Source: Gracilibacteraceae bacterium
GTDB lineage: Bacteria; Bacillota; Desulfitobacteriia; Desulfitobacteriales; Syntrophobotulaceae
Reading direction: 5' to 3'
Length of the DNA: 62,752 nt
NCBI GenBank assembly: GCA_031266805.1
Contig: JAISAH010000080.1
Span: forward strand, 1 to 62,752
Under the pieces are notes generated by a model that was not told the origin of the DNA, ran no database searches, and saw only the letters and a program-made list of their open reading frames with translations. A program made the translations under genes and the position numbers. Positions 17,492 to 54,489 of this stretch are shown here, piece after piece. Every line of letters begins with the position of its first letter. Position 1 is the stretch's first letter.

Positions 17492-20400
17492 ATGGTACCA
17501 AGAAGCAAGGGGCGGACGCTGATCTTAGTCTTGGCGATGGTGATCGGCGTGTTTGCCGGAGCGGGCGGCGCGGCCGCGGATGAGCCGGCCCTGACGTTCC
17601 AATGGGGAGCGGTGGTAAAGGCCGACATACCGGGATCGGAGCCCACCGCCTCCACCAATACCGCCAACGGCGTCAGGGTAAACGCCGACGGCGAGGTTTT
17701 CGTTTATGGCGGATTCAATTCCAACAGCACCACGGGTAAAGGTTACACGAAGATCATCACCGACCTTTACGACGCGGAGGGAACCCTCACGGCGACGACC
17801 TCGGCCGCCGGAGCGCCGTTCACGTACTCCGCCACCTCTGACAACACCAATCTTTTTATCAGCAAAATGAACCGGCAGGGAGATATTCTCTGGCAGGTGG
17901 TCAGCGACCGGGGAAACATCACCTCTACCTATTCCCAGGTCGTCCCCACCGCTGACGGCGGCGCCTTTGCCGTCCTGAACACCCGTCTCTGCAACGGCGA
18001 CGAGTTCGGCGACCTCAGCCTGCTCCGTCTGGTGGGAAGCGACGGCGTGACCAAAGAGGTCAAAATGCGGGAAGACTACGTCACCAACTCCGAGCAAGGC
18101 GTCGCCGCTAAAATCGACGCTGACGGGAAAGTCGAATGGGTGAAACATATCATCCAGGTGGACGACGGCCTGATTAACGGGAAAAACGCCACCAGCGCCG
18201 CCTATTTCCAGGCTCTGGAAGTAGATGAAGACGGAAACTACTGGCTCGGCGGCCGCTATGTCAAAGACGTCATGTTGGCCCTGCCCGGCGGCGGCAGCCG
18301 GACTCTCAGCCCGCACAACACGGCCGGGTGGGAAGGCGACTCGCAGCAGTCGCGCGGCGACGCCCTGCTGGTGAAGTTAAGTCCCCAGGGCGAACTGCTC
18401 TGGAGCCTGGAAACCGCAGGCACGGTGGCTTACCAGGCGGTGAACAGCCTGCAGTACCATGACGGAGCGCTTTACATCTACGGCAATATCGCCGCTGATT
18501 CCGACGGCGACGCCTCCGTCACTCTCGGCCAGACGCTCGCGCCCACCACCAAGATCAACGCTTGGTCGGCCCGTCTCGACACGAGCGGGGAAACACCCGC
18601 TCCCGTCTGGGTGAAGCTTTTGAAATCCCTGCCGCAAACCAACGGGGCCGGCGGGCGGATCAAAGTCACCAGGGCCTGCTATGACAACGGCGCCCTGTTT
18701 CTGGCCGGCTCTTTGACCGGGTTCATCGAAGTTGACGGCGAAAAAGTTGTGGCCAACGACAATATCAACGGCAGCAGCGCCAACTATCTGGCCGGCTTTT
18801 TCCTCCGGCAGGATCCGGACACCGGGGCGATACTCGGGCAATATGTCATCCCGGCCAGCGGTCTGGCCGCCGAGATAGAAAACGTCGCCTTCCGTCAGGA
18901 CAACTACTATATTTTTGGCTACGATCTGGGGTCAACCTGGATCCATGTTTGTGACAAAAATTACCAACTGACCGCCGCCTATACCTTGCTGGCCGCTGGC
19001 GGGGCCACGGCCTGGGACGCCCTCTTCTTCGAGGACGCGCTAATCACCGTCAACCGGGGGCGGCAGCTCAAGGTGAACAACGGCTCCATTGCCGGCGCGC
19101 CCCAGTCTTTTGTCGACGACGCGCCGATGGCTTACAGCGCCTACCTCCTGGCCCACGGTCTGGACGGGCTTAGCACGGCGCCGGTCGTCCCGGCGGTGGA
19201 CAAGGAGGCCTTGAACGCGGCGCTCACCGCCGCCGCGGCTTACGCCGGCAACAGCCACGCCTACACCGCCGAGAGCTGGGAGGCGTTTGTGGACGCTTTA
19301 GCAGCGGCCCAGTCCGCCGCCGCCGATGAGGAAGCCCTCCAGACGGAAGTGGACGGCGCCCTGGAGACTTTGCAGGCCGCCATGGCGGGCTTGCAGGCTG
19401 CCCTCGCCTCGTTTGCTTCCGGCAGCGGCGCCGAGGACGATCCCTATATCATCCAAACCAAGGAACAATTGGAAGGATTCCGGGATTCCGTGAATTTTGG
19501 CGCCGGTTATGCCGGCAAATATATAGAACTGGCCGCTGATATCAGCATCATCGGCGGCGATTGGGCGCCCATCGGCGACGCGGCCAAGTCGTTCGCCGGC
19601 GTCTTCGACGGGGCCGGGCATGAGATCAGTGGTCTGAGCATCGGCTCTGAGGGAGCGCCCGCCGCGCTGCCGGACGCCGGATTTTTCGGAAGTCTGGCGG
19701 ACAGCGCGGTCGTCAGGAATCTGGGACTGACCGATGTTTCCATTTACGCGACCGCCTATAACGCGCACGTGGGCGCGCTGGCCGGGCAGACGGCGCCGGC
19801 GGCGAACGCGGTCATCGAGAGCTGCTACGCGCAAGGCGGGATCATCAGCGGCCACGCGCCAAACGGCAGCGCCATCGGCAGTTACGTGGGCGGTCTGGTG
19901 GGATATACCAACAAAACGACCTTAATAATCAACAGCTGGACCGATCTTAACGTCGTCTCCCGGAGGGACGGCGATGCTAGCGGCAACGCCTACGCGGGCG
20001 GTCTGGCCGGGATCTCCTACGGCGCTTTGATCGTCAACAGCTACGCGCTGGGCGACGTGCGCGCGGAGACGGAGAGGAACATTAAAAGCGGCGGGGTCTA
20101 CGCCGGCGGCCTCGTCGGCGACCAAGAGGACGGCAAGGTATACAATTGCTATGCCGGCGGGGACGTGTCGGTCTCCGGTCCCAGAGGGGATATGACCCCT
20201 GTGGGCCTGGTGTCCGGCTGGTTTGACAAGAGAACTGGCGCCATGGGCAATGTGTTTTATAATAATTTGGCGGTCATTTCCGGCACTTCGCAAACCCGCG
20301 GGCCCGTCGGAGCAGGATCAACAGCAAGCACTAACGGAATAGCGCGGGATTTCGCGGGCGTAGACCCCAGCCTGCCGGCGAGTCTGGCGGATCTGGTCCT

Positions 20401-23400
20401 GGGACTGAACCGGGGCGCGGAGGCTTTGCTCGGCGGCAGCGCCGAGGTTTATGTGAATACCGCCTGGCAGGCGCTCACTTTGCCGGCGGGCGCCGCTCCT
20501 TTGTATTGGACTGTCGCCGGCAGCGGGCCGGTTTTAACGGCGGACGCCTCTTTGGCCAGCAAATACGCTCTTATCAACGCGGCGATCCCGGCCGCCGAGG
20601 GATATGAAGACAGCGGCAACGACGATGAGACCTATACCGCCGCGAGCTGGGCGGCGCTGGAAAACGCTCTGGCCGCGGCCAGACTCGTCGCCGCGGATCC
20701 GGACGCCGCGTCAGCGGAAGAGGCGGCCGGCGCTTTGGCGGCTCTGCAGGCGGCGATAAGCGGCTTGGAGATCATTGTTTTCGACTCCGGCAGCGGCACG
20801 GCGGAGGATCCCTATATGCTCCTGACCACGAAGCGGCTTTACAACTTCCGTGACGCCGTGAACGGGGGCGAGACCTACGCCGGCCGCTATGTGGCCCTTG
20901 GCGCGGACTTCGACCTCAGCGGCGGCGACTGGACGCCTCTGGCCGTTTTCGCCGGTTCCTTCGACGGGGCTGGGCATGTGATCAGCGGCCTGACCATCGG
21001 CTCTGAGGAAGCGCCCGCCACCGTGCAAAACGCCGGATTCTTCGCTACTCTCACCAACACCGCCGCTGTGAAAAACCTGGGATTCACCGGCGCCGCCATC
21101 TATACCACCCACCCGAATACGGCGCAGGCGGGCGTGCTTGCGGCAGGGGTGAACGCAGGCTCGGCGGCCCAGGGCGCGGTGATCGACAATTGTTACGCCC
21201 GAGATTCGGTCGTCAGCCTCTCCGCCGGGCAGTACAGCTATACCGGCGGTTTGGTTAGCATGTTATCAGGCTACGCGGTCGTGAGCAACAGCTGGACGGA
21301 CGTCAGCGTCAAGGGCGAGACGAGAAGCGGCAGCCAAAACCCGAGCGCGGGCGGTCTCGTCGGGTACAGCGTGGCCAACTCTTTGATCGAAAACTGCTAC
21401 GCCGCGGGTGACGTTACGGCTCTGACCGCGAGCGGCGCAGTCGCCACAGGCGTGTATGCCGGCGGGCTCGTCGGCCAGCAGAGAGGCAAGGTGTTCAACT
21501 GCTACGCCGGCGGGGACGTAACCGTAAGTGGCGGGAACGGGGCCGCTTTCACCGCCGTAGGCGCGGTGTCCGGTTACTTCCTCAATTCCAGCGGCGGCAT
21601 GAACCATGTGTTTTACAATGAACTGGCAAAAATTATCGTGAACGGCGCCGAGCGGGAGTCTGTGCCGGCGGCGGGAACGTCTACAGGGAGCGGGACGGCG
21701 GAGAACGCCGCCGCTGTGGATATTTCCGCAGCGGAGTCTTTGGCGGAGCTGATCCGGGGACTGAATCAGGGCGCGTTCGCTCTGTTTGACAATAACGATA
21801 CCGCCTATGTCGCCGTGAACGGCGCGCGGCAGACAGCGGCTTTGCCCGCGGGCGTCGCGGCGATGTACTGGGACGGCGCGGGCGGCTCGCCGGTCTTGAC
21901 GGCGACGGCGCCGGAGCGGCCGGTCGTGGATAAAGGCGGCCTGAATGCCGCTATCGCCGCGGCCGAGGAATACGACAACAGCGAGGGGACCTACACGACC
22001 GCGAGCTGGGCGGCCTTTGAGGGCGCTCTGACGGCGGCGCGGACCACCGCCGGCAACGCGCTGGCTTCTCAGGCGCAGGCCGACAGCGCGGCGGCGGCTT
22101 TGCAGGACGCGATCGACGGCCTGGAAATCGTGGTCGAGGCGGATAAGGAGGCCCTGAACGCGGCTATCGCCGCAGCCGAGGCCTATGACAACAGCGACGG
22201 GACCTATACCGCCGAGAGTTGGGCGGTCTTGGCCGAGGCTTTGGCGGCGGCGCAGGGTGTTTCCGCTGACGCGGAAGCCGCCCAGACGGAAGTGGACGAC
22301 GCGGCGGCGGCTTTGCAGGACGCCATCGACGGTCTGGAAACTGCCGTGACTGAGGCGGATAAGGACGACTTGAACGCGGCTATCGCCGCGGCCGAGGCCT
22401 ACGATAACGACGACGGGACCTACACCGCCGCGAGCTGGGCGGTCTTGGCCGAGGCTTTGGCGGCGGCGCAGAGTGTTTCCGCTGACGCGGAAGCTTCCCA
22501 GACGGAAGTGGACGATGCGGCGGCGGCTTTGCAGGACGCCATCGACGGTCTGGAAACTGCCGTGGCTGAGGCGGATAAGGACGACTTGAACGCGGCTATT
22601 GCCGCGGCTCTGGCCTATGACAACGACGACGGGATCTACACCGCCGCGAGCTGGGCGGCCTTGGCCGAGGCTTTGGCGGCGGCGCAGAGTGTTTCCGCTG
22701 ACGCGGAAGCCGCCCAGACGGAAGTGGACGACGCGGCGGCGGCTTTGCAAGCGGCCATCGACGGTCTGGAAACGGCCGTGACCGAGGCGGATAAGGACGA
22801 CCTGAACGCGGCTATCGCCGCGGCTGAGGCCTACGATAACGACGACGGGACCTATACCGCCAAGAGTTGGGCGGCCTTGGCCGAGGCTTTGGCGGCGGCG
22901 CAGGGTGTTTCCGCTGACGCGGAAGCCGCCCAGACGGAAGTGGACGACGCGGCGGCGGCTTTGCAGGACGCCATCGACGGTCTGGAAACAGTGTCTGGCG
23001 AAGAACCCGGCGATGAACCCGGCGATGAGCCCGGCGACGAACCCGGCGACGAGCCCGGCGATGAGCCCGGCGACGAACCCGGCGACGAACCCGGTGACGA
23101 GCCCGGTGATGAGCCCGGTGACGAGCCCGGCGACGAACCCGGTGACGAACCCGGTGACGACGACCCAATCATAGAAGAACCGGAAGACGACGGCGACTAT
23201 ACCACTCCGGTCGGGAATGTGGAAGTGGACTATAATGTCACGAACGGCGAGGCTGCGATAGATTTGTCGTCTGCGGATAAAGTAGACGAGTTGATAGCCG
23301 ATGCCCAGAACTCGAACTCGAAACAAACAGTAGTAAGCATCGACGTATCGGAAGCCCCTTCGGTTAAAACCGCCACTTTGCCGGCCGAGGCGCTGGCCAG

Positions 23401-24736
23401 TTTTGCCGAGGCGGAAGTGACGGTGGAGATCAAACTGCCGCAAGGCTCGCTGACCCTCACCGCCGAGCTGGCGAAGCAAGTGGCGGCGGCAGGCGGCAAT
23501 GTGTCTCTGGGTATTCAGCCGGTCGATCCGGCGGATTTAGGTTCGCGCCAGAAAGAGGTGGTGGGCGGCGCTCCTGTCTTTGATATATCCATCACAAACA
23601 ATGGGGAATATATCGCGGAATTTGACGGACTGCTCTCGATCAGACTGCCTTATACTCTGCAACCTGGTCAAAAGGCGAACGGCGTGACGGTTTATCATCT
23701 GGATGACCTCGGTAACATCCAGAAAATGACAACAATGTATGACGCGCGGTCAAAAGAGGTGCTTTTCACCACCGACCATCTCTCCACGTTTATGATCGGT
23801 TACAGCGCGGTCGCGCCAACGCCTAACGGCGGCACTGGCAGCAGCGGCGGCGAAACAGCGGTTCCGGATGCTCCCGTGCCTACAGCGCCGGTTCCGGATG
23901 CTCCCGCGCCTGCCGCGCCGGCTCCCGTCATTGTCAGCAAAGCTACTCTCTCCTATATCAGCGGCCAAAACCGGGTGGAAACCTCCCTGGCCATCTCCCG
24001 CCGCGGCTGGACGAGCGCTAATGCGGTGATCATCGCTCCCGGCGGGCCGGGTAACCTGATCGACGCTCTGGCCGTCGCGCCGCTGGCCGGCCAGGAAAAC
24101 GCACCGATCCTGCTCAGCATGGGCAGTATTGATCCCGCTGTGATCGCGGAGATCCAGCGCCTGGGCGCGAAAAAGATCTATGTCGTCGGCGCTCTGGACC
24201 CGGCGGCGGTGGACACGCTGAAAAGGGCGCTGCCGAGTGTCACGGTCGAAACGCTGACAGGGGCTGACCGCTATGAAACAACGGCTCTGGTCAACGCAAA
24301 ACTCACTGACAGACAAGGCACGTTCGTCGTCGGCTACAACGCCACCGCCGACGCGGTGAGCGCGGCCTCCTTTGCCGCCGCCAACGGTTACGCCATCCAG
24401 ATTGCCACTCCTGATGGCAGTTTGAGCAGCGCGCCAGTGGGACAGACCTATATCCTGGGCGGCCCGACCCTCGTGCGTGATATAGCCGGGGCCACAAGGC
24501 TCTACGGCGCGACGCGCTACGAGACGAACAAGGCTGTCCGCGACGCTCTGGATTTCGATTACACGAATATCTACACGGCGGACGGGGGCACTTTGGTGGA
24601 CGCCTTGACCGGCTCGGCTCTCGCCGCGCAGACCAGATCCGCCATAGTCCTCGCGCCGGGGAACGACCCCACCGGCGTTGATTTTGGTAATATTACCCAG
24701 GAAACGACGGTCTACGCTTTCGGCGGTTCCAAGTAA
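17492..24736 (+). CDS. Giant CWB2-anchored protein with propeller, GLUG and FIVAR repeats
   Basis: This 2414-residue exported protein has a signal peptide at 1-29. An N-terminal ~530 residues follow with SBBP-like beta-propeller strands (LFISKMNRQGDILWQ, DALLVKLSPQGELLWS). A FIVAR-like helical unit is at ~570-640, a GLUG-rich region (YAGGLAG, YVGGLVG) at ~642-1020, then another FIVAR and a second GLUG region (~1097-1470). Five more FIVAR units (~1480-1833), four nearly identical at DNA level, precede 13 copies of EPGD (~1836-1890). A beta domain of ~220 residues leads to three C-terminal CWB2 repeats (~2150-2414). It is probably a large adhesin or matrix protein. The last domains match the next gene closely. 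Confidence 0.88.
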   Translation: MVPRSKGRTLILVLAMVIGVFAGAGGAAADEPALTFQWGAVVKADIPGSEPTASTNTANGVRVNADGEVFVYGGFNSNSTTGKGYTKIITDLYDAEGTLTATTSAAGAPFTYSATSDNTNLFISKMNRQGDILWQVVSDRGNITSTYSQVVPTADGGAFAVLNTRLCNGDEFGDLSLLRLVGSDGVTKEVKMREDYVTNSEQGVAAKIDADGKVEWVKHIIQVDDGLINGKNATSAAYFQALEVDEDGNYWLGGRYVKDVMLALPGGGSRTLSPHNTAGWEGDSQQSRGDALLVKLSPQGELLWSLETAGTVAYQAVNSLQYHDGALYIYGNIAADSDGDASVTLGQTLAPTTKINAWSARLDTSGETPAPVWVKLLKSLPQTNGAGGRIKVTRACYDNGALFLAGSLTGFIEVDGEKVVANDNINGSSANYLAGFFLRQDPDTGAILGQYVIPASGLAAEIENVAFRQDNYYIFGYDLGSTWIHVCDKNYQLTAAYTLLAAGGATAWDALFFEDALITVNRGRQLKVNNGSIAGAPQSFVDDAPMAYSAYLLAHGLDGLSTAPVVPAVDKEALNAALTAAAAYAGNSHAYTAESWEAFVDALAAAQSAAADEEALQTEVDGALETLQAAMAGLQAALASFASGSGAEDDPYIIQTKEQLEGFRDSVNFGAGYAGKYIELAADISIIGGDWAPIGDAAKSFAGVFDGAGHEISGLSIGSEGAPAALPDAGFFGSLADSAVVRNLGLTDVSIYATAYNAHVGALAGQTAPAANAVIESCYAQGGIISGHAPNGSAIGSYVGGLVGYTNKTTLIINSWTDLNVVSRRDGDASGNAYAGGLAGISYGALIVNSYALGDVRAETERNIKSGGVYAGGLVGDQEDGKVYNCYAGGDVSVSGPRGDMTPVGLVSGWFDKRTGAMGNVFYNNLAVISGTSQTRGPVGAGSTASTNGIARDFAGVDPSLPASLADLVLGLNRGAEALLGGSAEVYVNTAWQALTLPAGAAPLYWTVAGSGPVLTADASLASKYALINAAIPAAEGYEDSGNDDETYTAASWAALENALAAARLVAADPDAASAEEAAGALAALQAAISGLEIIVFDSGSGTAEDPYMLLTTKRLYNFRDAVNGGETYAGRYVALGADFDLSGGDWTPLAVFAGSFDGAGHVISGLTIGSEEAPATVQNAGFFATLTNTAAVKNLGFTGAAIYTTHPNTAQAGVLAAGVNAGSAAQGAVIDNCYARDSVVSLSAGQYSYTGGLVSMLSGYAVVSNSWTDVSVKGETRSGSQNPSAGGLVGYSVANSLIENCYAAGDVTALTASGAVATGVYAGGLVGQQRGKVFNCYAGGDVTVSGGNGAAFTAVGAVSGYFLNSSGGMNHVFYNELAKIIVNGAERESVPAAGTSTGSGTAENAAAVDISAAESLAELIRGLNQGAFALFDNNDTAYVAVNGARQTAALPAGVAAMYWDGAGGSPVLTATAPERPVVDKGGLNAAIAAAEEYDNSEGTYTTASWAAFEGALTAARTTAGNALASQAQADSAAAALQDAIDGLEIVVEADKEALNAAIAAAEAYDNSDGTYTAESWAVLAEALAAAQGVSADAEAAQTEVDDAAAALQDAIDGLETAVTEADKDDLNAAIAAAEAYDNDDGTYTAASWAVLAEALAAAQSVSADAEASQTEVDDAAAALQDAIDGLETAVAEADKDDLNAAIAAALAYDNDDGIYTAASWAALAEALAAAQSVSADAEAAQTEVDDAAAALQAAIDGLETAVTEADKDDLNAAIAAAEAYDNDDGTYTAKSWAALAEALAAAQGVSADAEAAQTEVDDAAAALQDAIDGLETVSGEEPGDEPGDEPGDEPGDEPGDEPGDEPGDEPGDEPGDEPGDEPGDEPGDEPGDDDPIIEEPEDDGDYTTPVGNVEVDYNVTNGEAAIDLSSADKVDELIADAQNSNSKQTVVSIDVSEAPSVKTATLPAEALASFAEAEVTVEIKLPQGSLTLTAELAKQVAAAGGNVSLGIQPVDPADLGSRQKEVVGGAPVFDISITNNGEYIAEFDGLLSIRLPYTLQPGQKANGVTVYHLDDLGNIQKMTTMYDARSKEVLFTTDHLSTFMIGYSAVAPTPNGGTGSSGGETAVPDAPVPTAPVPDAPAPAAPAPVIVSKATLSYISGQNRVETSLAISRRGWTSANAVIIAPGGPGNLIDALAVAPLAGQENAPILLSMGSIDPAVIAEIQRLGAKKIYVVGALDPAAVDTLKRALPSVTVETLTGADRYETTALVNAKLTDRQGTFVVGYNATADAVSAASFAAANGYAIQIATPDGSLSSAPVGQTYILGGPTLVRDIAGATRLYGATRYETNKAVRDALDFDYTNIYTADGGTLVDALTGSALAAQTRSAIVLAPGNDPTGVDFGNITQETTVYAFGGSK
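22137..23163 (+). repeat. Tandem 216-bp FIVAR repeats followed by a 12-bp repeat array
   Basis: Four units of about 216 bp start near 22139, 22353, 22569 and 22785 and are nearly identical, each encoding ~72 residues. From about 23005 to 23160 a 12-bp unit (GAACCCGGCGAT and variants) repeats 13 times. Both arrays keep frame and could change length by recombination or slippage. Confidence 0.9.
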
Positions 24737-25068: not shown

Positions 25069-28000
25069 ATGAACTTTAAGAAACCCCGCGGGGTTTTGGC
25101 GCTGCTTCTGGCGGCGCTCCTTCTGACCTGTTTCAGCAGTCCGGCTTTAGTTTTAGCGGCCGGCGGCGACTATCAGCCCGGCGTCTATGAGGGCAGCGCC
25201 CAAGGGCGCAACGGGGCGGTCACCCTTTCTGTTACTGTTGACGGCGACAATGCGATCAGCGCCATCGCCGTCACGGCGCACCAAGAAACGACTGACTACT
25301 GGAATCAGGCGACGGCGGTCATCGCCCAGATCCTGAGCGCTCAGGGCGTCAGCGGCGTTGACGCGGTCAGCGGCGCCACTTTGTCCAGCCGGGCGATCAT
25401 CAACGCCACGGCGAGCGCGCTGGCCAAAGCCGACCCGGCGGTGTACTTTTTCGCCGGCGGCAGCGGGACTTCCGCGGATCCGTACACGATTGCCGACGCC
25501 GCGCAGCTGGGCCTATTCCGGGACGCGGTCAACGCCGGGACCAGTTATGCCGGCAAACACATCGCTTTGAGTGAGGATATCGACATCAGCGGCGAGGACT
25601 GGACGCCGATCGGCTCGGCGAACGCGCCGACCGCGACGGCGCTGAAGTTTGCCGGCTCTTTTGACGGCGGCGGCCACACGGTCAGCGGCTTGACCATCGG
25701 CGCTGAGGACGATCCGGCTTCTCTGCTCAATGCCGGTTTTTTCGCCATTCTCGCCAATACGGCAACGGTGAAAAACCTCTCATTGACAGAAGTTTCCATC
25801 TATAACGCGCCGACGGCCGCTTCCTGGACCGGCGCTCTGGCGGCACTGACGGAGGCCGGTTCCGCCGATGGCGGCGGCACGGTCGTTGATCGCGTCTCCG
25901 TGACCGGCGACGCGGTCAGCGCCGTGGGCAGTACAGGCATCGCGCGCGTAGGCGGGCTGCTTGGAACCTGCGGGACTTATATCAGCGTCACCAACAGCTA
26001 TACGGATATTACGGTGACCGCTGAAGTTCTGGCGGCGAACGCTCCTTACGCCGGCGGTCTCACGAGCATGGGCGGCAACTACGGGCTCATCGCCAATTGC
26101 TACGCTCTGGGCGACGTCTACGCCGTCACGCCCCACGCCAATCAGAACTCCGGCGTCTACGCCGGCGGTCTGATCGGGATGCAGAGCGGCAAGGTTTACA
26201 ACTGCTACGCCGGCGGCGACGTAACGGTGACCGGCAACCAGACGACCAACAGCGCCACGCAGTTTACGGGGGCTGGCGCCCTCTCGGGACAGCTCATCAG
26301 AACCACCGGCGGCATGTACTATGTTTCCTATGACACGGAAGCGGTAATCACCGTGAACGGAATCGCGGCCGATCCGGCGCCGCCTTGCGGCATCGGCACC
26401 CCGTCCGCCAGCAAGGAGCCGGAGAACGCCGCGGGCTATGCCGGCTCCGACGCGGAGGACCGGGAGAAGCTGACGGCCAGACTGAACATCGGCGTGCTGA
26501 GAGCCGGCGAGGCGACGCTGGAAGTCAATCCGAATAACGCGCGTGAGGCGGTCGTCCTGCCGGCCGGCGTGAGCCTGCTGGGCTGGGAGGCGGCCGGCGA
26601 CGGTTTTGTCTGGACGGAAGCGATAGACGGCGGCGACGGGGAGCCGGGGGATATCTTCGACTCCGGCAGCGGCACTGAGGACGACCCTTATGTCGTCGCC
26701 GACGAAGACCAGCTGCGCGCTTTTGCCACGTCCTTGACTCCCTACGTGGACTATGCCGGGAGATATGTCGTGCTGGACGCTGACATCACTTTGACCGGCG
26801 GCGACTGGATGCCGATCGGCGAAGGCGAATATCCTTTTGCCGGGGTTTTTGACGGCGGCGGCCACACGATCAGCGGCCTGACCTACGAGAGCGACGGAGA
26901 AATCAAAAACGCCAGCGACACGTTTTTCATCGGATTTTTCGGCGTGCTGAGCGGCACGGCCAAGAACCTGACCCTCACTGAAGTGGACATCCACGCCGTG
27001 GGCAAAGTCAGTCTTTACACCGGCGCCCTGACCGGGTATATGGAGACCTCGTCTGTCGTGGACAGCGTCTTTGTCAGCGGCGAGATCTACAGCGAGACTC
27101 TGGAAAACGGCAACAACTTCGCCGGCGGCATAGCCGGCAGCATGTATCGGGGTCTCATCGTCAATTCGGGCAGCGACGCTTTTGTCAGTTCGGTGCAGCG
27201 CGGCGGCGCCTGGTCTGAAGTCGGCGGGATCACGGCGATGAACAACCGCGGTTCCATCATCAACTGCTATTCTTTCGGCGACGTCTATTCTTGGGCCAGC
27301 CGGGCTTTGGAAGCAGGGATTGCCGCCTCTAACCTGGCCGGGTTCCAAGCGGGGGATCTGGTGAACAGCTACGCCACAGGCAATCTCACGACCTCGGATC
27401 AGGCCTGGAACGTGGGCGCCGTCAGCGGGGACACCACCGGTATTGGCAAAGGCTATTTCCTCTACTACAATTCCGAAGCCCACCAGGATATCGCCGGGCA
27501 GATTCCGGATCCGGTGATCGGGGTCGGGCTGACGGCCAAGACTCAGGACGAGGAAAACCCAGAGATCATCGTGTCCGGTTTTAATCACGAGTTGAAAGCC
27601 TTTACCGCGGATTATCTGAAATCTCAGGAATTTGCCGACCTGCTCAACGGAAATCTGGCGGCTTTTCCTCTGGATCCGGCTTCTCTGCCCCAGGGCGTCG
27701 CCCTGAAAACCTGGGAGGCGCGTGACGGGCGGATCCTGCCGGTCGGCGCGGCCGCCGAATTGACCTATGTGCCGGTGACGATTATCGACGATACGCCGCC
27801 GGCCTTCCAAGCCGGGCGCTACCTCGGGCGCGACGGGGATAAGACCCAGCTGGTCAGCGTCACGGTCAGCAATGACGCGGTTCTGGCGGTCGCCCTCTTA
27901 GCCCCGGCGGAGGTGGAAGGAAGCGCAGAGCTGATCGCGCAGATCATCGACAATCCCAACGGCGCAGGCTCTCTGACCCCGGCGACCCCGGCGCTGGCCG

Positions 28001-30807
28001 CTCTGCGGGAGGCTATAACGACGGCCTTAGGCAAGGCGAAGATCGGCGACGCCACCGGCTATGGCGCGGCTGACCCGGCGGCGGTCTTCGCCGGCGGTTC
28101 CGGCACCGAAAGCGATCCTTATCAGATCGCCAGCGAAACCCAGCTGCGGACTTTTGCCGCGGCAATCAACGAAGATGAACACTTCACCGGCCGGTATGTC
28201 GCCCTGACCGCCGACATCACCCTGACCGGGGAGTGGGTGCCGGCGGGCGGCGGCAACGCGGATCACGCCTTTGCCGGCAATTTGGACGGCGGCGGCCATG
28301 TCGTCAGCGGGATGACCGTCGGCAGCGCGGACAGGCCCGCCAATTACCGTTTTATCGGCCTGCTGGGCTATGCCGACGAGGTCGTGATAAAAAACATCCG
28401 CCTGACTGACGTCAGCGTCAACAACGTATACACCGGGACAGAGCGCTCCTTCGCCGGCACTTTGGCCGGCGGCGTGGACTATATGTCCCATTTCGACAAT
28501 TGCGCGGCTTCCGGTGAGATCAGCCATCTCGCGGCCGGGACGAACTCGGCCTTCGTAGGCGGCCTGATCGGTTTTGCCAGCGGCTACGGCAACCTCGTGA
28601 CCATGGAGCCGGACAACTCCTACTCGGTCTTTATCACCAATTTTGCCACCGACGTGGACATTTACGGTCAGTCCTACGGCGGCTGGGTCTACGCCGGCGG
28701 TCTCCTCGGCAACGACAACCGCACCTATATCGCCAACGGGTACGCTTTGGGCGATGTGACGGTTTACAGCGGCGGGCCGGACCGAGACAACCTGAACCGG
28801 GCCGCGGCGGGCGGTATTTCCGGTTTTGGCGCCGGTTACGTGAGCAATGTGTACACGGCGGGCAATATGACTTCCCTCACCAACACGACCGACGTGGGCG
28901 GCTACGCCGGGCGGCACACAGGCATCGCCACCACGGAGTTCACTTACTACAACAGCGAGGCGGCGCATCGATCCGGCAACACGGTCCTGTCGCCTACTCC
29001 CGGCGTGGGCTTTGTGGTGCCGGCTTCCAGCGGGCGCGCCCCCGATCTCACCCCGAAGACAGCCGCCGAGCTGACGAGCGCGGAGTTTGCCGCTTTGCTC
29101 AACGCTAATCTGGAGAACATCTCAATAGGCGAAAACCTTTCAATAGGCCCGCTGGCGGATACGGTCTGGGATCTCTGGATCTTTGACGGCGGCGCGGTGG
29201 TTCTGGATATGACGGCGCCCGCGCCCGACGAAGGGGAAGCGGAAGATCCGGTCGTTGACGAAAATCAAGTAACTGTGTCCGTTAAACCCAGCGTCACCGA
29301 AGAAGGCGTGGCTGTCGCCAATATTGACGCAGCCGTGGAGAAAGCGCTGGAAAAAATTAACAGTCAACAGGGCGAGGAACTGACGAACATCATCATAAAA
29401 GTGGAAGCGCCGCCGAGCGGTGAGTATGTCGCGGTCAAAAAGGTGGAGGCGCAGCTTAGGACAGACCTTATACAATCCGTCGCGGACAGCGCCGCGCAAA
29501 GCCTGACCGTCGCTTCTCCCGTGGGTGAAATCACCCTGAACATGGGCGCGATGGAAAGTCTCCTGCAAGAAGCGGCCGTTTCGGACAGCATCGTTTTTTC
29601 CGTTGGCGAAGCGGATGTTGAGCAGGAACAGTTGAGTCCCGCCCAACAAAGCATCATGAACAACGGCGCGGCGGTCTTTGACATTTCCATCGCCATCGGC
29701 GGCGCTAAGACAGACATAAGATTATCATCGGGAAAATTCACGATCAAACTGCCTTATGTCCTGCTTGACAGCGGCAAGAGACCCCAAGTCAGATATTTCG
29801 CTCCCGACGGAACGGCCGCGCCGCTGGAAACCGCCTATCAAAGCGGCAGCGTTATTTTCGAAACAGATCATCTTTCCCTGTACGCGATTGACACCGTCCT
29901 GGCGGAACAGGATATTCCGGCACGGTCGCCAACGCCGAACGGCGGCTCCGGCAGCGAAGCGCAGGTTCCCGTAGTGCCTGAAACAGCGGCTCCCGGCGTC
30001 ATTGTCAGCAAAGCCTCTCTCTCCTATATCAGCGGCCAAAACCGGGTAGAAACCTCTCTGGCCATCTCCCGTCGCGGCTGGACGAGCGCTAATGCGGTGA
30101 TCATCGCTCCCGGCGGACCGGGTAACCTGATCGACGCTCTGGCCGTGGCGCCGCTGGCCGGCCAGGAAAACGCGCCCATTTTGCTCAGCATGGGCAGTAT
30201 CGACCCCGCGGTGATCGCGGAGATCCAGCGCTTGGGCGCGAAAAAGATCTATGTCGTCGGCGCTCTGAACTCGGCGGCGGTGGACGCGCTGAAAAGGGCG
30301 CTGCCCGACGTCACGGTCGAAACGCTGACAGGCGCTGACCGCTTTGAAACGGCAGCTCTGGTCAACGCAAAACTCACTGACAGAAAAGGCACGTTCGTCA
30401 TCGGCTACAACGCCACCGCCGACGCGGTGAGCGCGGCGTCGTTTGCCGCCGCCAACGGCTACGCTATCCAAATCGCCGGCCCTGACGGCAGTTTGAGCGG
30501 CGCGCCGGTGGGACAGACCTAGATCCTGGGCGGTCCGACCCTCGTGCGTGATATAGCCGGGGCCACGAGGCTCTATGGCGCGACGCGCTACGAGACGAAC
30601 AAGGCTGTCCGCGACGCTCTGGACTTCGATTACACGAATATCTACACGGCGGACGGGGGCACTTTGGTGGACGCCCTGACCGGCTCGGCTCTGGCCGCGC
30701 AGACCAGAGCCGCCATAGTCCTCACGCCGGGGAACGACCCCACGGGCGTGGATTTTGGTAATATCACCCAGGAAACGACGGTATACGCCTTCGGCGGTTC
30801 CAAGTAA
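25069..30807 (+). pseudogene. FMN-binding, GLUG-rich CWB2 surface protein with an in-frame amber codon
   Basis: The 1817-codon frame ends at TAG 30520-30522 but stays open in the same frame to TAA at 30807 (1912 codons). The paralogue at 17492 has TAT at the matching position, so this looks like Tyr1818 to amber inside the second of three CWB2 repeats. Domains: signal peptide 1-31; FMN-binding domain ~35-122 with DAVSGATLSS (98-107; Thr104 the expected site of covalent FMN attached by ApbE); GLUG regions ~130-480, ~540-890 and ~1007-1385; a second, degenerate FMN-binding-like domain ~915-1005 in which SGAT is replaced; a beta domain ~1400-1640; CWB2 ~1648-1912. Such proteins may take part in extracellular redox chemistry. 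If truncated, wall binding would be weakened and the product could be released. Confidence 0.85.
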
Positions 30808-50688: not shown

Positions 50689-53600
50689 GTGAGAAAAAAT
50701 ATTTCAGCTATCGGACGCTGTATCGGGCGGCATTTGGGCGCCGCTCTGCTTCTGGCGCTTATCTGCGCTTTGCTGTTTGTTTTGCCGCCGCAAAGCCCGG
50801 TGGCGGAAGGCTCCGTGGTGACAGGACACGCGAGGTTTCTGACCTATGAAGTAACTGATGATACAGCCAAAACCGTCACCATCACCGACTGCAAATACAG
50901 AGAATTTTATGACGACTATGATATGATGGATTGGTATGGGCCAGCTGTGACCGACGAATTCCTCTCCGCCGACTTCGAGGCTATAGCGAACGCGGGCTAT
51001 ACCATCACGCGCATCGGGGCGGGCGCCTTTCGGGGCACAACTTTGGAAAATACCAGTAACAATCATCCTGAATTGAAAAACATCACATTCCCCGACGGTC
51101 TGCTCGCCATTGCGGAAAGCGCTTTTTCCTGGGGGTATCTCGAAAGTATTACCCTCCCCGACAGCCTGCTGGAAATCGGGGAAGACGCCTTTTGGGGCTG
51201 CGATAAACTTGTAAGCTGCGTTATTTCGAACAATTCCAGCCTCGAAACCATTGGGAAGAGCGCTTTTTTCGAGTGCTTTGCTCTTGCGACGATCAATCTG
51301 CCCTCCGGCTTGAAAAGCATTGGAGGAGGGGCTTTTAACGGCTGTTCGAGCTTGAGCGGAGTAACACTACCGGAGGGGCTGGAGACTATTGGAAATGGAG
51401 CTTTTCTCTTTTGCGAAAGCCTTATATCCATCAATATACCGACCGGCTGGACGACCATACCCCGGGGCGCTTTTAGCGGTATGGAGGGTCTTACGAGCAT
51501 TTCCATACCATCCACTATAACCACGATTGAGCGTGACGCCTTCGCGAACTCCAGTCTGACAAGCGTTACGATTCCAGCGTCCGTAAAAACGATGGGTCTT
51601 TACGTTTTTGAAAACTGCAAGGCGCTCGCAAGCGTCACGTTTGCGAGCGATTCCGCGTTGACCGACATAGGTCAGTATACTTTCACCGGCTGCACGGCGC
51701 TTGAAAGCATTAAGATCCCCAAAAGCGTACCCACGATACGCGCATATGACTTTTCCGGCTGTACGGCGCTCGAAAGCGTCACATTTGAACCCGGTTCCGC
51801 GCTGACCGCCATTTATCAGAACGCTTTTGAAGGATGCACGTCGCTTACCGATTTTGTGATCCCTTTAACTGTGAACTCGCTTGGCACCTTTGCATTTGCG
51901 GACTGTACGTCGCTAACCGAGATTACGATCCCCAAAAACGTACCCACACTGGGCACATCCGTATTTGAAGGCTGCTCCGCGCTCAAAAGCGTCACGTTTG
52001 AAGACGGGTCCGTGCTTACAACCATCGGAGCGAGCGCATTTAAAGACTGTACGAGCCTTGCGGACATCGACCCCCCGAACGGCGTGACGTCCATCGGGGC
52101 GAGAGCCTTTGAGAACTGCACGGCGCTCACTGAAATCACGATCCCCAATACCGTAACTGCGATAGAAGACTACGCGTTTACCGGTTGCACAAGCCTCGAA
52201 AGAGTCATATTTGAATCCGGCTCTGTACTCACCACCATCGGCGAGGGCGCGTTTACCGGTTGCACAAGCCTCGAAAGAGTCATATTTGAACCCGGCTCTG
52301 TACTCACCACCATCGGCGAGGGCGAGTTTAAAGGCTGCACCAGCCTTGCGGAAATAGTGCTTCCTGACAGTCTTGCGCCTACCGAAAGCGTCTACATGCC
52401 CATCGGCGTGAGCGCTTTTGAAGGCTGCATGAGCCTTGAGAAAATCAATATCCCTGACGGCGTTGATTCTCTCCCTCCTTCCGTCTTTTCCGGCTGTTCA
52501 AATTTGTCTGAGGTTGAGATTTCTGAGAAGTCGTCTCTCCTTAAATTCGGTTCCGACGTATTTAAGAACTGCAATAAGCTTGCGAGTATATTTCTGCCGC
52601 CGCGCATTGTCTGGATAGAACCGACCACGTTTGCGACAGATGACGTCTTGCCTGACGGAACGCCGCGCGACGTACTTCCGATCACCATCGGCGCCTTCTA
52701 TGACTCCTACGCTCTCTGGTGGGCGAAGGAATATGGCTATTCGTATCTCGTCGCTCCAAGCAGCTACGAAATGAAAGCAAACCGGCCGGACGCGATGTAC
52801 AAATACATCCCTTATGAATTTATCGCCAAGACGCGTGTCCCGTATAACGCCGGTCTGTACTTTGAACTTGACGAGGCGCTGCCGGATGGCTTAAATCTCT
52901 ACGACGGCATGACGCTTCCCGCAGACGCGCCGGCGGGGATACTGCCCGGCACAATCTACGGTTCCCCGCTGAACTATGAGGATTTCGAGAGTCCGGGTGT
53001 GACATTCACCATGACAGCCAAAAACATCGGCGCGGACGGCGCCGTCGCTGAGAACGGCTTCACAGCCTCCGCCACATTTACCATCACACTGGCGGATACG
53101 CCGGATAACCAATATTTGGAAGACTATGTCAACGAGTATGATTTTATGGCTGATCCCATACACGGCGGCGACGGGCGTATCGGCGTGTATAACCCCGATA
53201 CGGGCGAATATGAAATCATCGGTTATTACAATGCAATAGGCGACCTGATAATGCATATCGACGGTCCTTTCGAATTGTTTGACAGTTTTTGGATCGACGG
53301 TATCAAGAAAATACCGGTTGTGCATTACATCGCCGAAGACGGCAGCACCCGCGTCACCATTCTGGCCCAGACCATTCGGGAGCTTAACGACGGCGAACAC
53401 ACGGCGGCGGCCGCTTTCCGCCGGGCAAGCGATGATCCGGGAAACTTGGACATCGAGGCATACACAGCCTGGAATGATGATGAAAGCGGCAAATTCAGGG
53501 ATAATTTGGATGTGGTGGCGCAAAAATTCACCGTGATGCTGGCGGATCGTCCCGGCACGCCCGGCGGTAACGACGGCGGCGGCAATGGCGGTAACGATGG

Positions 53601-54489
53601 TAACGGCGGCAATGGCGGTAACGACGGATCCGGCGGCAATGACGGGACCGGCGGTAACGACGGATCCGGTGGCAACGGCGGAACCGGTGGCAATGATGGA
53701 ACCGGCGGTAATGGCGGAACCGGCGGTAATGATGGAACTGGCGGTAACGACGGAACCGGCGGGACTGGCGGTAGCGACGGCGCCGGTGGCACTGGCGGTA
53801 CAGGTACAGGCGGCGCCGGCGGCGCCGGCGATACCACCGGCGCTGCCGGAGACGGCGGCAATGCCGGCGACGCCGCGGAAACGGGAGACGACGCGGCTGA
53901 CAGCGCCGCGGCGGCGGAACCGGCCGCGCCCCCTGAAGCTCCCGCCGCGGTCGAAGCCCCGGCGGCGGTCGCCGCGGCTGATATTCCCGACGACGCGCCT
54001 GAGCTTCCCGCCGAAGGCGGACTCGAAACTCCCCCTGCGGAGGGCGCTGAGACCCCCAGTGATGAGGATTTACTCAGCGGACTGCCCATAGGTGAAGACG
54101 GGCGTTTCTACTTCACGCTGGACGGGAGCGGCGCGCCGCTGGAAGTGCGGATCGACATCCCGCTGCCGGAATTTGACAGCCTGTATTTTGACGGCGCCCT
54201 CTGGGCGGCGGACGCCGATTACGCGGTCCGCTCCGGCAGCACCGTGCTGACGGTCACAGCCGAGCGTCTCGAACCATATGAAGCGGGGACGCATACGCTG
54301 ACGGCCCGTTTTCAGTCACGCTCCGTGGAAATACCTTTTGAGCTGATAAAGACCGCCCCGTTATCCGAGGGCGATGAAACAAGCGCCTTCCCGGCCCCGA
54401 TCCTGGCCGCCCTCATAGTTCTGGCCGCAGCCGCCGGCGGAGCGGCAATCCTGACGGCGCGCAAGAAAGCGGCAAGCCGCCCGGAATAG
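50689..54489 (+). CDS. Giant BspA-like leucine-rich-repeat surface protein
   Basis: This 1266-residue protein has a GTG start with GGGAGG before it and a signal peptide (~1-40). About 25 LRR_5/BspA repeats (~70-640) carry the pattern AF-GC-SL--I-IP--V--IG. Two beta domains follow, then a Gly/Asn/Asp tract of GGNDG(T/S) repeats (~960-1060) and an Ala/Pro-rich stalk. A further beta domain precedes one C-terminal membrane helix (~1237-1257) and an RKK tail, without LPxTG. It is probably tethered by this helix and used for adhesion or binding. A family A half-repeat and a strong terminator follow. Confidence 0.9.
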   Translation: MRKNISAIGRCIGRHLGAALLLALICALLFVLPPQSPVAEGSVVTGHARFLTYEVTDDTAKTVTITDCKYREFYDDYDMMDWYGPAVTDEFLSADFEAIANAGYTITRIGAGAFRGTTLENTSNNHPELKNITFPDGLLAIAESAFSWGYLESITLPDSLLEIGEDAFWGCDKLVSCVISNNSSLETIGKSAFFECFALATINLPSGLKSIGGGAFNGCSSLSGVTLPEGLETIGNGAFLFCESLISINIPTGWTTIPRGAFSGMEGLTSISIPSTITTIERDAFANSSLTSVTIPASVKTMGLYVFENCKALASVTFASDSALTDIGQYTFTGCTALESIKIPKSVPTIRAYDFSGCTALESVTFEPGSALTAIYQNAFEGCTSLTDFVIPLTVNSLGTFAFADCTSLTEITIPKNVPTLGTSVFEGCSALKSVTFEDGSVLTTIGASAFKDCTSLADIDPPNGVTSIGARAFENCTALTEITIPNTVTAIEDYAFTGCTSLERVIFESGSVLTTIGEGAFTGCTSLERVIFEPGSVLTTIGEGEFKGCTSLAEIVLPDSLAPTESVYMPIGVSAFEGCMSLEKINIPDGVDSLPPSVFSGCSNLSEVEISEKSSLLKFGSDVFKNCNKLASIFLPPRIVWIEPTTFATDDVLPDGTPRDVLPITIGAFYDSYALWWAKEYGYSYLVAPSSYEMKANRPDAMYKYIPYEFIAKTRVPYNAGLYFELDEALPDGLNLYDGMTLPADAPAGILPGTIYGSPLNYEDFESPGVTFTMTAKNIGADGAVAENGFTASATFTITLADTPDNQYLEDYVNEYDFMADPIHGGDGRIGVYNPDTGEYEIIGYYNAIGDLIMHIDGPFELFDSFWIDGIKKIPVVHYIAEDGSTRVTILAQTIRELNDGEHTAAAAFRRASDDPGNLDIEAYTAWNDDESGKFRDNLDVVAQKFTVMLADRPGTPGGNDGGGNGGNDGNGGNGGNDGSGGNDGTGGNDGSGGNGGTGGNDGTGGNGGTGGNDGTGGNDGTGGTGGSDGAGGTGGTGTGGAGGAGDTTGAAGDGGNAGDAAETGDDAADSAAAAEPAAPPEAPAAVEAPAAVAAADIPDDAPELPAEGGLETPPAEGAETPSDEDLLSGLPIGEDGRFYFTLDGSGAPLEVRIDIPLPEFDSLYFDGALWAADADYAVRSGSTVLTVTAERLEPYEAGTHTLTARFQSRSVEIPFELIKTAPLSEGDETSAFPAPILAALIVLAAAAGGAAILTARKKAASRPE

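Follow-up and report, generated by a model that had tools for sequence, protein, structure and literature searches.

A giant surface protein combining an FMN_bind domain, GLUG-type beta-helix blocks and CWB2 repeats in a Gracilibacteraceae bacterium

Layout of the gene and its interrupted 3′ end

The window analyzed here, a stretch of 62,752 nucleotides from a Gracilibacteraceae bacterium, carries a gene for a giant surface protein (Table 1) composed, from N- to C-terminus, of a signal-peptide-like segment, an FMN_bind domain with a flavinylation motif, two GLUG-type beta-helix blocks, a second FMN_bind-like domain that lacks the motif, a third beta-helix block and CWB2 repeats. The product had been predicted to be exported and anchored by CWB2 domains, and in agreement the N-terminus was signal-peptide-like on reading the sequence and PF04122 matches were detected at the C-terminus. 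The 3′ boundary, however, was found to differ from the original prediction, which ran the gene to position 30807 and left unmentioned an in-frame TAG at which the open reading frame (ORF) stops. The frame reopens after this TAG and stays open for 94 codons, with position 30807 being the end of the TAA that closes it, and this downstream frame holds the third CWB2 repeat. Thus, the three CWB2 repeats do not lie in one standard-code reading frame, as the TAG is inside repeat 2. Elsewhere in the window (50689-54489), a BspA-type leucine-rich-repeat protein of 1266 residues is encoded. No 16S gene was detected in the draft genome.

Table 1. Coordinates of the gene for the giant surface protein, its product features, its neighbor and related loci of the genome
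Feature	Coordinates	Strand	Basis
ORF, giant surface protein, 1817 codons + TAG	25069..30522	+	ORF listing
Signal-peptide-like N-terminus MNFKKPRGVLALLLAALLLTCFSSPALVLAA	25069..25161	+	Judged by reading sequence
FMN_bind domain 1 (PF04205), residues 46-118	25204..25422	+	Pfam profile; nearest structure 8p2b
Flavinylation motif DAVSGATLSS, residues 98-107	25360..25389	+	Read from codons
Putative acceptor Thr104, codon ACT	25378-25380	+	Motif position
GLUG-type beta-helix block 1 + linker, from FFAGGSGT (residue 127)	25447..26652	+	Alignment to neighbor
GLUG-type block 2 + linker, from IFDSGSGT (residue 529)	26653..27801	+	Alignment to neighbor
Degenerate FMN_bind-like domain 2, residues 912-994, motif-less	27802..28050	+	hhalign, AlphaFold, Foldseek
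GLUG-type block 3 + linker, from VFAGGSGT (residue 1006)	28084..29250	+	AlphaFold, Foldseek
CWB2 repeat 1 (PF04122)	30028..30264	+	PF04122 scan
CWB2 repeat 2, broken by one TAG	30325..30546	+	PF04122 scan
In-frame TAG; TAT (Tyr) in ten paralogs	30520..30522	+	Comparison of CWB2 tails
CWB2 repeat 3, in frame beyond TAG	30568..30804	+	PF04122 scan; TAA at 30805-30807
Neighboring paralog: GLUG, FIVAR, three CWB2 repeats, no FMN domain	17492..24736	+	Pfam
Two-FMN_bind + FAD_binding_2 protein by second apbE	L013 6670-8799, G000:C151		
Reductive dehalogenase + membrane FMN_bind/Fer4_5 protein	L017 1284-4414, G000:C81		
ApbE with NusG_II	L020 5757-7097, G000:C97		
Pyl gene set with tRNA-Pyl + TAG-containing MtmB gene	L058, G000:C126:4000-20000		
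In-frame CWB2 inserts	L016 375-548, L070 1254-1418, L068 963-1133		

Judged from the sequence, the TAG may be a stop, an error or a sense codon. Since TAG is otherwise a common stop, an error or nonsense mutation was ranked first and a pyrrolysine reading second. We consider it likely that the 3′ end is damaged in this way, by nonsense mutation or assembly error, and that, if the TAG is real, the product is truncated and poorly anchored. Consistent with this, (i) TAG terminates 12 of the 45 ORFs of the window, about a quarter, as well as several CWB2 genes at their natural ends; (ii) a single base separates the TAG from the TAT found in 10 of 10 paralogous CWB2 tails compared, such that an in-frame TAG is not conserved among the homologs; and (iii) the window comes from a 152-contig draft genome. 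An ortholog sharing this CWB2 tail was not found. Counter to damage, the sequence after the TAG displays no sign of decay, with 11 synonymous and 2 nonsynonymous changes relative to the neighboring paralog and no nonsynonymous change assigned to the branch of this gene, although a change that arose very recently would leave the same picture. The FMN domain, moreover, lies upstream of the TAG and is untouched.

The other argument against damage is that the organism encodes a system for pyrrolysine, the 22nd amino acid. Genes for tRNA-Pyl, PylSc, PylSn, PylB and PylD were identified, together with a PylC-like ATP-grasp protein, assigned as PylC from its place in the gene order and a weak match to PylC-like_N, and the adjoining MtmB gene is split after residue 202 by an in-frame TAG. 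A search for MttB (PF06253) gave no match, and PylSc was above its cut-off in only 2 of 25 family genomes. With this system and the TAG-containing MtmB gene present, the TAG of the surface protein is possibly sense. In Acetohalobium, trimethylamine is needed for pyl expression (PMC11467909). It is improbable, but conceivable, that pyrrolysine is inserted at the TAG when a methylamine-linked Pyl system is active, such that the flavoprotein would be truncated and weakly anchored in one state and fully wall-anchored in the other; if true, this would constitute a genetic-code switch that governs how a flavin carrier is displayed at the surface. Whether pyrrolysine is used outside methylamine methyltransferases could be tested simply at this TAG.

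Two FMN_bind-type domains and three beta-helix blocks

The predicted flavinylation motif was located intact at residues 98-107, where DAVSGATLSS conforms to Dxx[S/T]GA[S/T] with Thr104 as the acceptor. The PF04205 profile matched residues 46-118 (E 6.3e-13; 49.6 bits against a curated cut-off of 22 bits), and in a genome scan this domain was the top-scoring of ten FMN_bind domains (E 8.6e-15). Two apbE genes were also detected in the genome (PF02424, E 1.8e-81 and 5.7e-74). The two outcomes named beforehand as counting against the original prediction, no PF04205 match and no apbE, were thus not what was found. When domain 1 alone was compared with solved structures, the nearest was 8p2b (CbFMN4 domain 1, E 2.2e-7), in which FMN is covalently attached via the motif threonine (PMC10339131); an FMN_bind domain profile retrieved CbFMN4 domain 1 (8p2b), SaFMN3 domain 2, RnfG and NqrC. 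The giant surface protein scored 17.9 bits against the NCBIfam RnfG model and did not reach its cut-off of 102, and no redox partner was recognized among the neighboring genes tested. The proposal of a flavinylation-type domain outside Nqr/Rnf-type membrane complexes is upheld in so far as the domain is carried by a predicted secreted, wall-binding giant protein in a genome with apbE and membrane FMN_bind proteins.

A second, motif-less FMN-binding-like domain had likewise been proposed and was found to be real at residues 912-994. Profile-profile comparison (hhalign) of these residues with an FMN_bind set gave an E-value of 1.9e-7 and a probability of 93.7%; the Pfam FMN_bind profile did not match them. 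The AlphaFold model of the domain displayed the beta-beta-beta-alpha-alpha order of FMN_bind followed by a beta-helix, and Foldseek matched it to both crystallized FMN domains, 8p2b and 8p2a, at TM-scores of 0.52-0.61 on the target. The mean pLDDT of domain 2 with GLUG block 3 was 88.6 when folded with a 32-row alignment that contained FMN_bind rows, possibly biasing the model toward the FMN_bind fold; folded from the single sequence, the same region reached a pLDDT of only 30 and the model was unusable. The flavinylation motif is absent from domain 2, with SLTPATPALAAL / LINGLSQELKEL standing in its place.

An FMN-GLUG unit that was duplicated and then decayed, as originally stated, does not agree with the ortholog of a Peptococcaceae MAG (G041), which has the second domain but not the first. 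This ortholog is colinear over residues 127-1394 (52% identity), retains domain 2 in likewise motif-less form, has no N-terminal FMN domain and ends LPKTG-like, not in CWB2. It was the single clear ortholog returned when the named genomes were queried with domain 2-GLUG3; the FMN1-GLUG1 junction, queried over the named genomes, gave no match. Because the ortholog keeps a motif-less domain 2 without domain 1, domain 2 is not the fresh decay of a duplicate but an old, conserved module lacking the motif. We are doubtful, for the same reason, that the FMN-GLUG unit was duplicated within the protein and that the second copy then lost its flavin site, even though FMN1-GLUG1 and FMN2-GLUG3 are colinear (residues 34-260 versus from 908, 39% over 227, E 9e-32), their linkers are alike (ADPAVYFFAGGSGT and ADPAAVFAGGSGT) and an FMN domain stands ahead of GLUG in no other sampled GLUG protein. 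In the domain tree, an FMN1+FMN2 clade was not recovered, yet neither was it rejected (p-AU 0.37), and domain 1 grouped with the FMN domains of other giant surface proteins of the genus (support 87/86, unstarred).

The assignment of GLUG repeats stood in part. Pfam Glug (PF07581) gave nothing up to E 1 for the giant surface protein, whereas the homologous neighbor matches; the repeats are GLUG-type by homology to this neighbor (44% identity between block 1 and its GLUG region) and by fold. Instead of one GLUG region per FMN domain, as had been described, three GLUG-type blocks are present. For block 3, the top Foldseek match was 3n6z (E 2.5e-9), followed by IgA1 proteases, indicating a fold shared with GLUG proteins and the N-terminal beta-helix of IgA1 proteases. 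In contrast to these proteases, the giant surface protein lacks their metalloprotease site, as no HExxH motif was found in it.

FMN_bind and CWB2 proteins of the genome and relation to known systems

Five of the ten FMN_bind domains identified by the genome profile scan are spread over four giant exported proteins, the window protein and C38, C93 and C102; the organism thus specializes in surface flavoproteins. C38 (1697 residues) and C102 (2012 residues) both have CWB2 repeats C-terminally, while C93 has two FMN_bind domains in an ORF interrupted by the contig end; intact FMN_bind domains are present in all three and CWB2 is visible in two. Similar giant FMN proteins were found in two genomes of the same genus. 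NEAT was matched in C93 (E 4.4e-11) and at a sub-threshold level in C38; the NEAT region of C93 had no match in the PDB by phmmer, and visual inspection of the C93 copy did not reveal the YxxxY haem motif that classical NEAT domains carry. The giant exported proteins L014, L015, L016, L042 and L044 were observed to carry FMN_bind with NEAT or NEAT-like domains and FIVAR, several with CWB2. Near-identical in-frame inserts of ~100 bases were noted in CWB2 genes immediately ahead of the YILGG position, which is the TAG site in the window gene, and a 3′ flank translating as TRDRAKAKQGARLSAGTHRHEN is common to several CWB2 genes (L014, L059, L061 and L016). Use of CWB2 in the genome is heavy, with 162 matches.

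Other FMN_bind domains include two that occur with FAD_binding_2 in one protein near an apbE, and one in a small lipoprotein-like protein weakly similar to PplA. The apbE that carries a NusG_II domain adjoins an Hpre_diP_synt_I protein, transporter-like ORFs and a CWB2 protein. Candidates for the membrane flavin carriers that had been suggested as worth looking for were detected as FMN_bind plus Fer4_5 membrane proteins on C81 and C113; that of C81, RdhC/NosR-like, is encoded after a reductive dehalogenase gene (match to TIGR02486 above cut-off), and in rdh clusters PceC bears covalent FMN (PMC5928378). As such membrane proteins exist, one of them beside a reductive dehalogenase, the organism probably uses extracytosolic flavin electron transfer.

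In place of multihaem cytochromes, cells are known to use flavins on exported proteins for extracellular electron movement, and to our knowledge most of the characterized exported flavoproteins are located at the membrane. Wall-associated flavoproteins have already been proposed by Meheust et al. 2021 (PMC8238504), with SLH, Rib, FIVAR and LysM proteins named in multi-flavinylated clusters. Those clusters likewise unite FMN_bind with the ApbE motif, export and wall-binding domains within one system; here, by contrast, a single polypeptide carries both the FMN domain and the wall-binding repeats, with CWB2 as the anchor and a GLUG-type beta-helix as the body. Neither GLUG nor CW_binding was found as a term in PMC8238504, and the literature searched held no paper linking GLUG with FMN-binding or NEAT with flavinylation. 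It is thus the FMN-GLUG-CWB2 layout that is new, and not wall-associated flavinylation itself.

Of the multi-FMN proteins CbFMN4 and SaFMN3 (PMC10339131; 8p2b, 8p2a), 8p2b is the nearest to domain 1 by sequence, and their fold is shared by domain 2, yet these have tandem FMN domains joined by flexible linkers, whereas the window protein has one intact and one motif-less domain with beta-helix spacers. The FMN_bind family is also shared with NqrC, RnfG and PceC (RdhC), with covalent FMN on Thr demonstrated in NqrC and PceC (PMC4348036, PMC5928378); these reside in the membrane or its complexes, whereas the window protein has no recognized membrane partner and falls below RnfG cut-offs. With the CWB2 S-layer/cell-wall proteins of Clostridia, it has C-terminal CWB2 in common, the NCBIfam S-layer SlpA match being weak and below cut-off, but it adds an FMN domain and beta-helix, and the TAG breaks its CWB2 set.

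Proposed role at the cell surface

We propose, with a probability of roughly 0.6, that the protein displays an ApbE-flavinylated redox domain at the tip of a wall-binding beta-helix surface stalk. The motif, FMN_bind domain, export signal, apbE, CWB2 and beta-helix on which this draws were identified by sequence or, for block 3, by model. The ApbE flavin transferase would attach covalent FMN to Thr104 of the N-terminal domain; the three GLUG-type blocks would form the stalk, spacing the flavin from C-terminal CWB2 repeats that would anchor the protein to the wall, although the TAG complicates this attachment; and the middle FMN-like domain would serve as a conserved structural or binding module with no flavin. 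At the cell surface, the flavin would probably carry electrons as a single redox site, and its partners in this exchange may be other surface flavoproteins, soluble mediators, or an electron acceptor or donor outside the cell. Four points weigh against this proposal: (i) a lone flavin at the tip of a long stalk is unable to span the wall alone; (ii) the TAG would remove part of CWB2 repeat 2 and all of repeat 3; (iii) none of the neighboring genes tested was recognized as encoding a redox partner; and (iv) the ortholog has no N-terminal FMN domain, from which it follows that the scaffold does not require the flavin.

It is unlikely, in our estimation, that the protein serves chiefly as an adhesin or a polymer-binding beta-helix stalk into which an FMN domain was shuffled, maybe flavinylated but with a minor redox role or none. 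Such a history would fit the ortholog, in which domain 1 is missing and an LPKTG-type end replaces CWB2, as well as the FIVAR of the neighboring paralog at the FMN position, the fold of IgA1-protease N-terminal regions without HExxH, and the grouping of domain 1, in the tree, with FMN domains that other surface proteins of the genus carry. However, every motif residue of domain 1 is intact, its FMN_bind score is the highest of the genome, and the motif is kept by several giant surface proteins of this genome, which argues for selection on flavinylation. With the flavinylated stalk as the preferred reading, a genome encoding four or more giant exported flavoproteins would point to an outer wall that can itself be furnished with flavins, in an organism that has a reductive dehalogenase as well.
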